Part shown: positions 22,288 to 29,151 of the stretch, in pieces
Layout of the letters: each line of letters begins with the position of its first letter
How positions within the stretch are numbered: the first letter of the stretch is position 1
NCBI GenBank assembly: GCA_026399075.1
Contig: JAPLRR010000043.1
Span: forward strand, 1-64,000
DNA: 64,000 bases
Source of the DNA: Methylococcales bacterium
Lineage (GTDB): Bacteria > Pseudomonadota > Gammaproteobacteria > Methylococcales > Methylomonadaceae
Direction of reading: 5' to 3'
Position numbers and translations under genes: made by a program
Notes under the pieces: model-generated
What the model was told of the DNA's origin: nothing
Seen by the model: only the letters and a program-made list of their open reading frames with translations
Databases searched by the model: none

Positions 22288-22299
22288 ATAAGGTGGCTT

Positions 22300-22449
22300 A
22301 TGTCAGAAAATATACAAATCTTAAAAGACAAGGGCCAATCTAAATTTGCTGTTATTGATTTTGACGAATATAGTTACCTTAAAAGCTTATTGTCCGATCC
22401 CGTTAAGGTACAGGATAATTTATACTATTTCTACATCCAAAATGTTTAG
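22300..22449 (+). pseudogene. Truncated antitoxin-like remnant
   Basis: MSENIQILKDKGQSKFAVIDFDEYSYLKSLLSDPVKVQDNLYYFYIQNV*; resembles the N-terminus of longer antitoxin/XRE-type proteins. Confidence 0.4.
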
Positions 22450-22747
22450 CAAAAAGCAGGCTAATGCTTTAGCTTGTCGGATGTTAAGGTTAAGTTAGGG
22501 CTATAGCTTTTGGGAGTATAGGCTACGCTAACGCCTACCTAGCATAAGTGTTCTCGTCCTTTTCTAAAGGTGGGAAAGCTTACGTGGGGGGGAATGGAAA
22601 CGTTTGCACAAGTAATAACCTTTGGCATCGGTATTGGTGGATAGTATTGATATTTGGTTGTAGATAGAGCAACTATATGAACTAAAAAACGTATTAATAT
22701 ATTTTTTCACTTATTAATTAAAGAAATTATTTAGCAAGGTTTTTAAT

Positions 22748-24559
22748 ATGATAAAAAGTGCCTGGAAAGAACAAATAAAAGAAATTACAAAAACGTTAGT
22801 ACAGCAGGAACATTATCAGGAATTATTGAAATCTATTGATGAACATATTATTAATAGTAGAAAAATAAGTGAAACATTAGATTTTGTTGGTTCAAAACTT
22901 CTTAGCTTAACGAAAGCAAAATCTGGTTGTTTTGTTTTTGGTACATCATATTTATTATTTGGAGAAAAAAATACTGAACACCTTTTTCATGAACCTGTTG
23001 AGATAATAGCAGATAAGAAAGACCTAGCAATATATATTGACAAAATAATACTTAAATTCGAAAAAAATGAAAACATAAGTAATTTTGAAGAAATTGGGTT
23101 GTCAGAAATTGGAGATTTTAATTTAGATGAAAATTTAGTTAAAATGGTTCGAAGTATTGGTATTCAAATAAATATAGCAATAAACCAATCTGTTTTAATA
23201 AGTGTTCATCAGTTATATAAAGATATAATTAATGAATTTTCTAAAAAAGGTGATTCTGATGATGTTTACGAAACAATTTGTAGAAAAATAATTAACGTTT
23301 TTCCGCAAACTAAAGGTTATCCTAGGGTAAATGAAAGTGATATTAGTGTTCAGTTATTATATTTCTATGAAAAAGATAAATTAAGAATTATAGGAAGCAC
23401 TAATAAAAGCGAAGTTGGTGGAAATGTAGATGTATGCAATTCCATTTCCGGTTCACTTTTTAAATTAACAGAAAGTACAGCAAACAACGACGGTTATAAA
23501 GAGGAGTTGTATAAAGGTAATAGATATATTTATTTTATGGGTAATCCTAATAATGGTAACTTCAATTATAAAAAAACAATTTCAGGAATTACTAAATCTG
23601 AACTTGCTGTGCCATTGTATATTGAAGACAACAGCACATCACCCAGCAGTTTGATTCCTGTAGGCGTAATAAATATTGAGTCAAGTGAAGATAAGTATTT
23701 TAGAGAAACCCATGCGAGAAGTATTATATATCACAGTAATAATATTGCAGAATTGGTTGATAATATATATCAATTATCTTCAAGAAGGCAGGATATTCTT
23801 AAGGGCATGATATATACTCTTGAAGAATACATCAGGTCTGCTAACAGAGAATTTGACCATCAAATAAGACAACCTCTTCATCAACTTGATATGCTCGTAT
23901 TAACTTTAGAAAAAAATGTTGGTTTTGAAAATAACACTCTACTAAACAAGATTAAAGAGATTTATACAAATACATTCAACGCACGAAAAATGTTATCAGC
24001 TTCATTAAAATCATTTTCGGCAAGAAAACGTTATATTGATCTTGAAAATATTATCAATGATGTTAGTAAATTATTGGCGGAAACAATTAATTATGAAAAA
24101 ATAGAGTTTCATTCAAACATAAATATTAATTCAAAGAAAATTAAATTAGATAATTTATTCGTTCAATATTTGTATGATTTAATTAGAAATTCAATTGATT
24201 CTATCGCTTCTAAAAAAAATCGTAGAGCTATAGAAAAAGAAAACAAAATATTTAATCCAAAAATTACTATATCAGCAGAGCTAGTTGATGAGTTTAGTAG
24301 AAATGATGACAGTATAATATCCGATGAAAATAATAAAAGATGCTTAATTAAAATACATGATAATGGTGACGGCATGGATAAGGACTTATTAGGTAAATTA
24401 GGAGAGGATGGCTTTACTTTTGGAAAATCTCATGGCACTGGAAAAGGATTGTATTCATTTAAACAATATTTATCATTTAATAATGGTAGAATTGATGGTT
24501 TTGAAAGTGAAAAATATGAGTTTTTTTCAATTAGTTTCATTGTAGATATAGAAGAATAA
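22748..24559 (+). CDS. GAF-domain sensor histidine kinase
   Basis: GAF-like SELAVPLYIED...VGVINIESSEDKYF; H-box REFDHQIRQPLHQLD; N-box LIRNSIDSIA; G-boxes IHDNGDGMD and GTGKGLYSFKQYL; AT-rich. Confidence 0.8.
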   Translation: MIKSAWKEQIKEITKTLVQQEHYQELLKSIDEHIINSRKISETLDFVGSKLLSLTKAKSGCFVFGTSYLLFGEKNTEHLFHEPVEIIADKKDLAIYIDKIILKFEKNENISNFEEIGLSEIGDFNLDENLVKMVRSIGIQINIAINQSVLISVHQLYKDIINEFSKKGDSDDVYETICRKIINVFPQTKGYPRVNESDISVQLLYFYEKDKLRIIGSTNKSEVGGNVDVCNSISGSLFKLTESTANNDGYKEELYKGNRYIYFMGNPNNGNFNYKKTISGITKSELAVPLYIEDNSTSPSSLIPVGVINIESSEDKYFRETHARSIIYHSNNIAELVDNIYQLSSRRQDILKGMIYTLEEYIRSANREFDHQIRQPLHQLDMLVLTLEKNVGFENNTLLNKIKEIYTNTFNARKMLSASLKSFSARKRYIDLENIINDVSKLLAETINYEKIEFHSNININSKKIKLDNLFVQYLYDLIRNSIDSIASKKNRRAIEKENKIFNPKITISAELVDEFSRNDDSIISDENNKRCLIKIHDNGDGMDKDLLGKLGEDGFTFGKSHGTGKGLYSFKQYLSFNNGRIDGFESEKYEFFSISFIVDIEE

Positions 24560-24595
24560 CTAGGACAATTTTTTAGAAAAATATAGAGGTTTTAA

Positions 24596-25399
24596 ATGAA
24601 AAAAATTATACTACTTTGTGATGATGATAAGGGATTAAATAATGATATTAAAGATGTTTTAGAGCGTGAATTTAGTAATATAGAAATAGTACAGGCTTAT
24701 GACCGGGAAACAGCCCTTGATTTTGTATCCAAGAGATATTTTTCTATAGCAATAGTGGATTTAAATCTTGAAGGTAATTTGCCGCCTGGTGACTGGAGTA
24801 AAACTGGTGGAGTAGAAATAGTAAACAAGATAATTGAGAATAATTTTGATACTAAATTTATTGTTGTCTCTGCAAATCCTGAAACTGAATTATCATTCAA
24901 CTTAGCCAAATTAGGAGTGTCAAGTTATATTCAAAAAGGAGAAATGGGCGGCGCAAAAAAAATATTAGAATGTACAGCCAGTTTATTAAAATCAGATGAT
25001 GATATGGTCAAAAATTTGCCATACAAAATGGTTAGTTTCGCTGGAAAAAAGGGTTTTGATAAAGAAATATGGGAAGATAACTCTATATCTTTACTGAGCA
25101 TAAAAGGCGGGGCAGGTGGATTAGAATCTATTGCTAAAAAAGTTCTTAATAAGTTTTACCCTTATAAGTATTTAACAAAAGAGGGACTTTTATTAGATAA
25201 AGAAAATAAATATTTACATGGTGAAATTTGGTCATATCGACTTGGAAAACCACTAAATTTATTTATTTATAATAAAAAAGTAAGTAACATAGATAACATT
25301 GTTCATCAAGAAAATGAAAAAACTGATGAATTAATGGATAATATTTTTATTGTTTCACAACCAACAGATTCTTTAATTAAAATATTTGACGGTAATTAA
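24596..25399 (+). CDS. Response regulator receiver protein with uncharacterised C-terminal domain
   Basis: Receiver residues LLCDDD, AIVDLNLEG, VVSAN, YIQKGE; about 130 aa C-terminal part without a recognisable output domain. Confidence 0.75.
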   Translation: MKKIILLCDDDKGLNNDIKDVLEREFSNIEIVQAYDRETALDFVSKRYFSIAIVDLNLEGNLPPGDWSKTGGVEIVNKIIENNFDTKFIVVSANPETELSFNLAKLGVSSYIQKGEMGGAKKILECTASLLKSDDDMVKNLPYKMVSFAGKKGFDKEIWEDNSISLLSIKGGAGGLESIAKKVLNKFYPYKYLTKEGLLLDKENKYLHGEIWSYRLGKPLNLFIYNKKVSNIDNIVHQENEKTDELMDNIFIVSQPTDSLIKIFDGN

Positions 25400-25400
25400 A

Positions 25401-26057
25401 GTGAAAGTTTTAATTATAGATAATCACACCGATCAAACGCAAAGAACCAAAAATTTTTTTGGGTTTAATGATGAAGAAACTGATTTAGCACATACAAGAG
25501 ATGAAGCAATTAAAAATATCATTGAATATCAGTACGATGTTATATTTTTAGATCTTATGCTTATCGGTGGTGGAGATTGGACAGCTGCTACTTATATTTT
25601 AGAACAAGTATTTCAAACAGAAAATAGGCATGGTGTTGTTTTTTTAATAACAAATTATGCTGATGGCATTAATGATGATGAGCGATTAAAACAGCAATTA
25701 GATAAATTTCCAATCATATTAATAACAACACCATTGCTTGGTGAAATAGGAGAAGTTATACCAAGAGAATATAATGAAATAAAAAAAATTATAGATATAA
25801 TAGATAAAACAATTAAAAGAAACTCAAATAGACCATTTAGCAAAAACCATGCTATAAAACCTTTTTTTATTGTTTGTAAAAGTATATTTGTTATTTTTAT
25901 TTTTATTTCAAGTATAAAATATTTGCCTTCAATACTTGATTTACCAAGAGATACAAATGGTCTTATTGTTTTCTCTATTCCACCTATTATAACCCTTATT
26001 GCTTGTTTCTTTAATGAATTACAAATTATAATTAATTTAGTAAAAAATCCTAAATAA
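25401..26057 (+). CDS. Receiver-like protein with C-terminal transmembrane helices (likely GTG start at 25401)
   Basis: VLIIDNHTDQT and VIFLDLML receiver-like motifs; hydrophobic FFIVCKSIFVIFIFISSI and GLIVFSIPPIITLIACFF; one base after the upstream stop. Confidence 0.65.
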   Translation: MKVLIIDNHTDQTQRTKNFFGFNDEETDLAHTRDEAIKNIIEYQYDVIFLDLMLIGGGDWTAATYILEQVFQTENRHGVVFLITNYADGINDDERLKQQLDKFPIILITTPLLGEIGEVIPREYNEIKKIIDIIDKTIKRNSNRPFSKNHAIKPFFIVCKSIFVIFIFISSIKYLPSILDLPRDTNGLIVFSIPPIITLIACFFNELQIIINLVKNPK

Positions 26058-26558
26058 CATAAAACCACCTGATTAGCAAGACGCTTCAGCTTGACGAATC
26101 CAAATTGCGGGACGCGGCCCAAAAAGCACGGGGTCATGCCTTACATTTGACACACGTGGAAAACAGAGAAGCACTGGAAAACAGGCAGGTCTTGAAAAAT
26201 CGCATTGTGTGCCAAGATCTGCTTGTCTACCCAACCTATCGGCGGAAATGTTTGTTAATAACGCGCTGGCAGGTTCGTCATTCGGGTCTTGCGACACTAA
26301 TAAGCCAAGTAAGGTTGGCACATCTTTTTGAGCCCACGCATATACTTATGGTGCGTCCAAAATTGTTGGCATTGTCGTCATGCGAAAAATACGGTGCCAC
26401 TATCGGTGGACGAAAAAACCTGCACACCCTACTTGGCTTTAACTATATTCTAAACCCAGTTATTCCAAATCGTGAAATCATAACACATTGATTTATGAGA
26501 AACAAAAACCTCCCGCTTTAACCAAAATTTAATAGCTTATAAAAAATTAAGCATTGGG

Positions 26559-26864
26559 TTACAGATTAAAATAGTCAATCGACAATAAGCGGAAAGCGGA
26601 CAGAATGCGCTCTATGCGCACGGTATCTGGATGTACAGTATAGAAAATCAGATAACGCCCAAAAGGAATAAGGCGGATACCAGTTCCAAACTCTTCATGC
26701 AAAGGGGCTGCTTCTGGAAAAATAACTATTTTTTGGCAGCGTTCGCGGATTTCAGCGATAAATGATAAAGCGCGGCGCGGGTTGTCACGGGCGATATAGT
26801 CGGCAATTTCTTCAAGGTCAAATTCAGCGGCGGTCGAGAAAAAACAATTCATTGAATGGTTCAA
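26559..26864 (-). CDS. RelE/ParE-family toxin
   Basis: FFSTAAEFDLEEIADYIARDNPRRALSFIAEIRERC...IRLIPFGRYLIFYTVHPDTVRIERILSAFR. Confidence 0.9.
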   Translation of the reverse strand: MNHSMNCFFSTAAEFDLEEIADYIARDNPRRALSFIAEIRERCQKIVIFPEAAPLHEEFGTGIRLIPFGRYLIFYTVHPDTVRIERILSAFRLLSIDYFNL

Positions 26865-27121
26865 ACTTCTGGTTCGAGCATAGCCTGATATTTTGCCTCA
26901 AGACGTGAAAACACTGACTCGCTCGGTTTAGCAGGGCTTTTAATGGCTTCTTGAATTTTTGCGCGGTATTCCTCAATTTCAATTTTGCGCAATTCTTCCC
27001 TTCCTTCAAGACCCCGTAAAGCATCCCGCACTACTTCGCTTGCACTTATGTAGCGTCCTGTATCGATTTGCTGACGAATGAATTGTTCATAGTGTTCGCC
27101 TATGTCGTAATTGGATGTCAT
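26861..27121 (-). CDS. ParD-family antitoxin
   Basis: YEQFIRQQIDTGRYISASEVVRDALRGLEGRE; overlaps the toxin gene. Confidence 0.9.
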   Translation of the reverse strand: MTSNYDIGEHYEQFIRQQIDTGRYISASEVVRDALRGLEGREELRKIEIEEYRAKIQEAIKSPAKPSESVFSRLEAKYQAMLEPEV

Positions 27122-27607
27122 GGCAAAAACTCCTTATGTAGATAGGTTTTGATGTTATCAATATTTGATAATCTATACAATGATTAACCGTAATTCGTCT
27201 AAAAAACAAAGGTCTTTTTGACAACGTGAGTAAATATTCCAACCCACCGCTATTCTAACAAACGGATTAATGCGGCGCGTCGCTCATCAGACATAAGCCA
27301 GGGAATGAAATTCGTCAGCTAGGTCAGGCACATGCTTTTCGTGCCCGACATTGCAATGTTCGGATTCGCGGAAAGCTTCGGATAATCCCACTGGAAATGC
27401 CTATTCGGACACCAATATGTGGAGATTTGGGTTTTTGTCGCCACAGCTTTATCACGTCGCTTTGCGAAGGTCAGCTTGGAAATGCCTACCTTCAAACTCC
27501 GCTTGATAAAGGGGTTTTAGAACTCTTTTACATTTTTTGTATTAATCCAGTTGCTAAGGTTTCTATTTTAAGTACAATAATCCGTACATAAATACAGGGG
27601 TTTAACA

Positions 27608-27862
27608 ATGGATACTATCAGTTATTCAAATTTTCGTAGCCATCTGGCTAACACCTTAGATAAGGTCAATGACGATCATGTACCCATCATGATTACCCGT
27701 CAAAATGGCAAGCCCGCCGTTATTATTTCTTTAGAAGATTTTAAATCCTACGAAGCAACCGCTTACTTGATGGCAAGTCCCAAAAACGCTACGCGTTTAA
27801 ACCAAGCAATCGCCGAAATTGAAGCCGGTAAAACCGTTCAACACACGCTTGTTGACGAATGA
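27608..27862 (+). CDS. Phd/YefM-family antitoxin
   Basis: MDTISYSNFRSHLANTLDKVNDDHVPIMITRQNGKPAVIISLEDFKSYEATAYLMAS. Confidence 0.93.
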   Translation: MDTISYSNFRSHLANTLDKVNDDHVPIMITRQNGKPAVIISLEDFKSYEATAYLMASPKNATRLNQAIAEIEAGKTVQHTLVDE

Positions 27863-28113
27863 TTTTGTCGTGGGCAGAGACGGCATGGGAAGACTATCTC
27901 TACTGGCAAGCAACCGACAAAAAAACCTTAAAACGCATCAACCTGCTTATTAATGATATTAAACGCCATCCTTTTTCAGGTTTAGGCGATCCCGAACCCT
28001 TACGGCATAACTGGACAGGTTACTGGTCCCGCCGTATCGACCGTGAACATCGCATCGTCTACAAGGCCTCCACTGATGCCATCATCATTGCCCAATGCAG
28101 GTATCATTATTGA
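27859..28113 (+). CDS. yoeB: Txe/YoeB-family toxin
   Basis: LSWAETAWEDYLYWQATDKKTLKRINLLINDIKRHPFSGLGDPEPLRHNWTGYWSRRIDREHRIVYK; ATGA overlap with antitoxin. Confidence 0.93.
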   Translation: MILSWAETAWEDYLYWQATDKKTLKRINLLINDIKRHPFSGLGDPEPLRHNWTGYWSRRIDREHRIVYKASTDAIIIAQCRYHY

Positions 28114-28229
28114 TTAACGTAACGTGGCGGGGTCCAGTTCACTAGCCAGAAGGGCGGGCAACGCATGTCTGCCCACCAATTGTATGGGAGATGCTAGAGT
28201 GGGCAAATAAGCCTGCCCACATTACCTAA

Positions 28230-29051
28230 CTAATTGAAGTTCTTGTCAACCTTACGCCCGTTTAAGGCTTGGCCTGTGCGGACATTGCCAAAATATAAAT
28301 TTTGGAAGGCTGTGATTTGGGCTGCGGATACTTTTAATGGATTACGCAACACATACCAATCAATGCCTTCGGTACAGGGAGGGGCTGTCAAAGACCCGGC
28401 ATACGTATAAAAAGTCTTGTTATCGGGCAATAATTTGCTGGGGTTAATCGTGGTGTTTGACGGTGTGATGGGGATGTCAATTTGGCCATAGGCGTTATCC
28501 AAAATTTTCTGTAATGTGGAATTGTCTTTGCCCTGATAGTTTTCAGTGACCAATACCCCAATTATCGCCTGCTTGCCACTTGCGGTGGTGTGCCGGAATT
28601 GGATTTCCATTTTCGAAAACTGCCCGTCAATTTTATGCTCACTGGGTGCATGGAATTCAAATTGCACCAGCTCATATTTTTGCTTACCAATAAAAAACGC
28701 ATTCTTGTTATTTTTAGAGGCCGGCATGTTAACTTTAATCACATGGCCATTATTGGTGACTGAAAGTGGTGTTGTGGCATAACTAAAGCGGATGCCATTG
28801 ATATTGCCATTTTTAACCGCATTGCTGCTAAGAATATCAATGGGTGACTGTTTTTTTCCTATGCCACATTCTGCATAAGGATAGAGTTCGGGAACCGGAG
28901 CCGCGGCATTCAGACTGGTTTGTGCGCCCCATCCCGCTTGGTTGATATACGTCCATTGGGGATCGGTGCCTTCGGCATGAGTGCCATTCGCCATTGCCAA
29001 ACTGCCCATTGCCGATAGTACGAGGCAAACTTTCTTAAACGTCATATTCAT
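28230..29051 (-). CDS. Secreted alpha-carbonic-anhydrase homologue with substituted Zn ligands (CA-related protein)
   Basis: Signal peptide; PIDI, NNGHVIKV, QFEFHAPSEH, MEIQFRH, GSLTAPPCTEGIDWYVL; start reset to MNMTFKK. Confidence 0.88.
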   Translation of the reverse strand: MNMTFKKVCLVLSAMGSLAMANGTHAEGTDPQWTYINQAGWGAQTSLNAAAPVPELYPYAECGIGKKQSPIDILSSNAVKNGNINGIRFSYATTPLSVTNNGHVIKVNMPASKNNKNAFFIGKQKYELVQFEFHAPSEHKIDGQFSKMEIQFRHTTASGKQAIIGVLVTENYQGKDNSTLQKILDNAYGQIDIPITPSNTTINPSKLLPDNKTFYTYAGSLTAPPCTEGIDWYVLRNPLKVSAAQITAFQNLYFGNVRTGQALNGRKVDKNFN

Positions 29052-29151
29052 TTTTTTCTTTGCTATTTTAGTTAAAAAATTAGATTTTGCTTGATCGTAT
29101 GTTCTTTTAAATACCACGAGCTGAAAACAGGCCATTACCGCAATATATCTT

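Follow-up and report, generated by a model that had tools for sequence, protein, structure and literature searches.

A putative exported alpha-carbonic anhydrase-related protein with two zinc-ligand histidines replaced in a methane-oxidising bacterium

Introduction

Non-catalytic relatives of carbonic anhydrase (CA) are known mainly from animals. The CA-related proteins (CARPs) VIII, X and XI lack zinc histidines, retain His64 and boost lactate transport by MCT1 in a non-catalytic manner (PMC6609565), and the vertebrate CARPs are thought to act via protein interaction (PMC6609565; PMC9032886). The histidines missing from each CARP have been tallied in a review (PMC9032886). A literature search outside subscription journals found no description of a bacterial zinc-less alpha-CA. 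The single alpha-CA of Methylococcus capsulatus, a protein uncommon among methanotrophs, is its only secreted CA, and the study describing it relates it to RuBisCO (PMC11423575).

The stretch of 64,000 nucleotides analysed here (the window), from a Methylococcales bacterium, encodes a CA-like protein that can be set beside both groups. With bacterial alpha-CAs (PF00194; Thermovibrio 4c3t, Thiomicrospira 4xz5) it shares the full domain, the signal peptide, the motifs, T199/E106, His64 and His96, but His94 and His119 are replaced and V121R, V143I and T200A are added. With the vertebrate CARPs VIII, X and XI it shares an alpha-CA fold without at least one zinc histidine and a retained His64 (PMC6609565; PMC9032886). 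It differs from them in being bacterial, in having Glu at position 94 and in being nested among bacterial alpha-CAs, in a tree without vertebrate CARPs, and its histidines may have been lost independently of theirs.

The gene, its fold and its predicted export

28230..29051, minus strand: CA-like gene, 273 aa, with PF00194 over residues 59-271
28974..29051, minus strand: predicted Sec signal peptide, residues 1-26 (NGTHA followed by EG), with a hydrophobic core and no lipobox, from inspection of the translation

The frame runs on the minus strand from 29051 to 28230 through 273 codons with neither stop nor frameshift. The PF00194 match covers the full length of the profile (10-253 of 254; 137 bits, E 1e-39), and alpha-CAs in the PDB are matched at E values down to 7e-38, while an NCBIfam search with the protein gave no match. 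The AlphaFold2 model, built from eight sequences and good enough for the fold but not for side-chain geometry, has a mean pLDDT of 62.5, with core blocks at 75-88. Foldseek with this moderate model returned only alpha-CAs as top PDB matches (TMt ~0.7). Given the PF00194, PDB and Foldseek matches, the gene is not a chance open reading frame. QSPIDI, NNGH, PSEH and GSLT.PPC motifs are present, and the N-terminus MNMTFKKVCLVLSAMGSLAMANGTHA resembles by inspection a Sec signal peptide, in agreement with the initial annotation.

Active-site residues

Numbering follows what we take to be the human CAII sequence, the histidines of which land at 64, 94, 96 and 119 as expected. Mapped on it, the minus-strand codons of the pocket are as follows.

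28743..28745, minus strand: His103, equivalent to the proton shuttle His64, kept
28656..28658, minus strand: Glu132 (GAA), replacing zinc ligand His94 (codons and mapping)
28650..28652, minus strand: His134, equivalent to zinc ligand His96, kept (codons and mapping)
28599..28601, minus strand: Gln151 (CAA), replacing zinc ligand His119 (codons and mapping)
28593..28595, minus strand: Arg153 (CGG), replacing CO2-pocket residue Val121 (codons and mapping)
28563..28565, minus strand: Ile163, replacing CO2-pocket residue Val143
28386..28388, minus strand: Thr222, equivalent to gatekeeper Thr199, kept
28383..28385, minus strand: Ala223, replacing Thr200

The initial annotation had read H94E and H119Q from the codons CAA TTT GAA TTC CAT (QFEFH) and GAA ATC CAA TTC CGG CAC (EIQFRH). 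Both codon readings were verified, and the mapping on human CAII bears out the two replacements as well as the retention of His96 and of the NNGH proton-shuttle histidine. For the threonine of SLTAPP, likewise listed as remaining, this holds at the first position (T199) and not at the second, where T200 is Ala. V121R, V143I and T200A are three pocket changes beyond those first described. The triad at 94/96/119 reads E/H/Q instead of the three histidines of the enzyme, and at the sequence level the protein agrees with the CARPs in having a CA fold with at least one zinc histidine missing. Both the Thr199-Glu106 gate and the His64 shuttle are present, and the hydrophobic CO2 pocket is altered by V121R and V143I, with L198 and W209 kept. 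Unchanged relative to human CAII are H64, Q92, H96, E106, H107, E117, T199, L198, W209, N244 and R246.

A sequencing or assembly error could in principle mimic such a site, and the metagenome-type assembly is a draft in 111 contigs. Five independent codon changes in an open frame, however, including an H to E change that alone needs two base changes, make this explanation very improbable, and the flanking hem genes are 80-84% identical to those of the closest congeners, which places the contig in this genome.

The protein might also still be a metalloprotein, in which E94, H96 and Q119, possibly helped by E106 or a water molecule, would bind zinc weakly or another metal and support slow hydratase or other activity. 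Redesigned human CAII is found among the PDB matches (1cvc and 1cvd, titled as redesigned zinc sites, with a His2Asp-Zn site in 1cvc; H94N in 1h4n; H119N in 1h9n), and these single-ligand variants indicate that metal binding can survive a ligand change; Gln92 and Glu117, which back His94 and His119 in the second shell, are also retained. In the present protein, however, two ligands are changed together, a positively charged Arg stands in the place of Val121 beside the site, and T200 is lost. The zinc probability predicted by Metal3D for H119Q is moreover among the lowest of the CAII mutants (PMC10175565), and we regard retained metal binding as improbable.

Conservation of fold and pocket

Among 27 near homologues, 50 columns are at least 96% conserved, 16 of them in the active site by a strict list and 34 elsewhere. 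The CA-like protein departs at 5/16 of the active-site columns and at 0/34 of the others (Fisher p 0.002), in a post hoc test on one sequence. A wider active-site list gives 5/22 against 0/28 changed (p 0.012), and with the conservation threshold lowered to 85% p ranges from 0.012 to 0.08, the latter at the loosest threshold.

In the tree the protein groups with the homologues L003 and L025 (support 92/89), on a branch of 0.61 compared with ~0.41 for these sisters. Had the excess of ~0.2 per site arisen by neutral drift, changes would be expected at about 7 of the 34 conserved positions outside the active site; as there are none, the fold appears to have been kept while the pocket was remodelled. 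As far as sequences can tell, the alpha-CA fold thus looks maintained around a remodelled catalytic centre. The initial reading as a pseudoenzyme is strengthened by the same data: the changes at two ligands and at V121, V143 and T200 share one pocket, outside which each of the 34 near-invariant positions is unchanged.

These data also bear on the possibility, absent from the initial annotation, that the gene encodes a decaying alpha-CA, which recently lost catalysis as dispensable and has no present function. Its position on the longest branch of the trio would fit such decay. Against it, the changes do not extend beyond the pocket to any of the 34 other near-invariant positions, the frame lacks any stop or frameshift, and the two or more base changes at codon 94, together with V121R and T200A, look like remodelling and not like scattered damage. 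Taken with the genomic evidence given below, which is in its favour, we consider decay a serious though rather unlikely explanation.

Genomic setting

The gene lies 100 bp past hemY and is co-directional with it, at one end of an accessory insert delimited by gap comparison with congeners.

22288..29151, no strand assigned: accessory insert between ubiD and hemY, ~6.9 kb
22748-26057: kinase-like gene and two receiver-domain genes, within the insert
26559-27121: ParDE toxin-antitoxin pair (type II), within the insert
27608-28113: YefM/YoeB toxin-antitoxin pair (type II), within the insert

The insert is absent from most congeners, and the ubiD-hemY gap of 6.9 kb contrasts with ~0.2 kb, ~0.45 kb and ~1.8 kb in three of them (L098, L100 and L095, respectively). 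Within the genus the junction looks like a hotspot for insertions. That a form found once should sit in such an insert favours decay. The CA-like gene was ruled out as a fixed part of the hem operon, as there are congeners without a CA after hemY, and a mobile element with clear ends was ruled out because convincing terminal repeats are lacking. No convincing promoter or terminator was found at the gene. Its GC3 of 0.49 equals that of the neighbouring hem genes, which suggests that it has been in the lineage for longer than the kinase block or else derives from a similar genome. The kinase/receiver block is AT-rich (GC3 0.17-0.18) and looks recently acquired. The kinase-like gene is of the HATPase type, and the last receiver-domain gene has a hydrophobic, membrane-like C-terminus.

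Relatives and frequency of ligand loss

The genome encodes one PF00194 protein, its sole alpha-CA, along with three beta-CA matches and a pMMO/AMO-family gene that identifies a methane oxidiser. No RuBisCO match was found in the assembly, which is 93% complete, and without RuBisCO a periplasmic CA feeding CO2 fixation would be unneeded, again in keeping with decay. The same can be said of the scarcity of alpha-CAs among congeners, only 3/35 of which have any (besides the present genome, two whose proteins have normal ligands and are 40-46% identical), and of the frameshifted or split alpha-CAs in relatives. Across the order, 77/311 genomes have a match.

The nearest homologues, L003 and L025 from two genomes of another genus, are 52% identical and have H94/H96/H119. 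Whether homologues share the E/Q pair, a point raised in the initial annotation, is answered differently near and far: 27/27 of the close relatives have H94 and H119 and a zinc triad that is intact, while a distant clade linked to nir genes has independently acquired Q94/Q119. The E94/Q119 form was seen in one genome, with no second species having a Glu94 version.

The fetched CA-like sequences comprise 83 HHH, four QHQ, one QHH, one HHD and one EHQ (the present protein), counts that are not population frequencies, as the sequences were chosen for their similarity to the query and include loci from the altered-ligand search. L019, scored QHH, was removed from the count as an alignment or frame artefact (the motif reads IHEH), and L119, scored SAT, is a broken gene. 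A pattern scan for E, Q or K at position 94 with Phe at 93 and 95 gave four matches among 85,488 species, two of them true; L048 and L049 were rejected as short non-CA frames. The normal-His pattern occurs in 28/399 Pseudomonadota genomes, and the two figures together suggest that ligands are seldom lost (very roughly 0.1%), in a scan that is blind to other neighbouring residues (QLQFH in the nir clade, for instance) and from which near relatives of the CA-like gene may be missing. The [EQK]94 form was not found in viral contigs, and a single-protein search of genome contigs with over-specific patterns yielded no relative.

Within the family, alpha-CA genes are broken in L010, L041 and L119, and genes split by a frameshift or stop were seen in relatives (L108 in G059, L122 in G261, L119 in G144). 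The split genes indicate that alpha-CA is often lost in the family.

Proposed function

We slightly favour the reading that the protein is an exported, probably periplasmic, alpha-CA-related protein without catalytic zinc, acting by binding like the animal CARPs. Glu94 and Arg121, on neighbouring strands facing the zinc position, would form a putative ion pair filling the metal site. The cone-shaped cavity that remains, lined by His64, His96 and Thr199, may bind a partner protein or a small anion, and CO2 hydration in the cell would be left to the three beta-CAs. From the alpha-CA mechanism, efficient CO2 hydration by the protein is unlikely, because two ligands and a Val of the CO2 pocket are lost. 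The binding reading is consistent with a sister pair that has normal ligands, with the uninterrupted frame and with a GC3 like that of the hem genes; the single genome with this form, the insert with its two toxin-antitoxin pairs and the broken alpha-CAs of the family speak against it. For methanotroph genomes, ligands should be checked before PF00194 matches are counted as CA activity.

Parallel losses in other bacteria

Ligand loss is not confined to this locus, and the tree requires at least three separate changes.

L103, 6522-7268, minus strand: nir-linked CA-like lipoprotein
L124, 9412-10155, minus strand: nir-linked CA-like lipoprotein
L125, 10415-11161, minus strand: nir-linked CA-like lipoprotein
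L050, 2710-5448, minus strand: CA-like domain fused to a chemoreceptor, Ca. Magnetocorallium, 912 aa
L051, 5520-6359, plus strand: secreted CA-like protein of a Magnetococcales bacterium (Q94/Q119, R64)

Three congeneric species from the same family (L046, L112, L113) encode a CA-like lipoprotein that has Q94, Q119 and T121 and is 83-84% identical to L046. In every case its gene is flanked by nirS-cytochrome c on one side and by cytochrome c-nirF-nirDLGH-nirJ on the other, within the heme d1/nitrite reductase cluster. It resembles the present protein in its alpha-CA domain, the loss of His94 and His119, the changed V121 and the bacterial family, but differs in its separate loss on the tree, Gln/Gln/Thr residues, lipobox, nirS-nirF location and retained T200. 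Its dN/dS of 0.10-0.12 (~0.11) denotes purifying selection, and this homologue therefore indicates that zinc-less alpha-CAs are kept by selection in the family. As a zinc-less CA it may be easier to work with than the protein at 28230-29051, and both, the one with a rebuilt metal site and the other a selected Q94/Q119 lipoprotein in denitrification clusters, would be simple systems for studying an alpha-CA fold without zinc. Retention in bacteria of alpha-CAs with an incomplete zinc triad also makes a function of the protein described here more probable a priori.

L050 and L051 share with it the loss of His94, here to Gln, and in L051 also of His119 to Gln; they differ in having Arg in place of H64 and in belonging to a distant clade, and L050 is fused to a methyl-accepting chemotaxis protein and keeps His119. 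A tentative and, in our estimate, unlikely generalisation is that exported alpha-CAs have repeatedly become zinc-less binding modules in bacteria, forming a bacterial CARP class that occurs in respiration clusters, in chemoreceptors and as a free periplasmic protein with an E94-R121 ion pair replacing the metal, with a possible role in sensing or presenting (bi)carbonate or some other anion.

In L050 the alpha-CA-like domain (Q94, R64) forms the N-terminal part and the remainder is the chemotaxis protein, making it a candidate CO2/bicarbonate chemoreceptor. An exported CA-like protein with H119D is encoded in G207 (L104:5126-7696, plus strand) directly upstream of a chemoreceptor gene, the product of which is related to the chemotaxis part of L050 (31.6%, 3e-28) and represents the unfused form of the same pairing.
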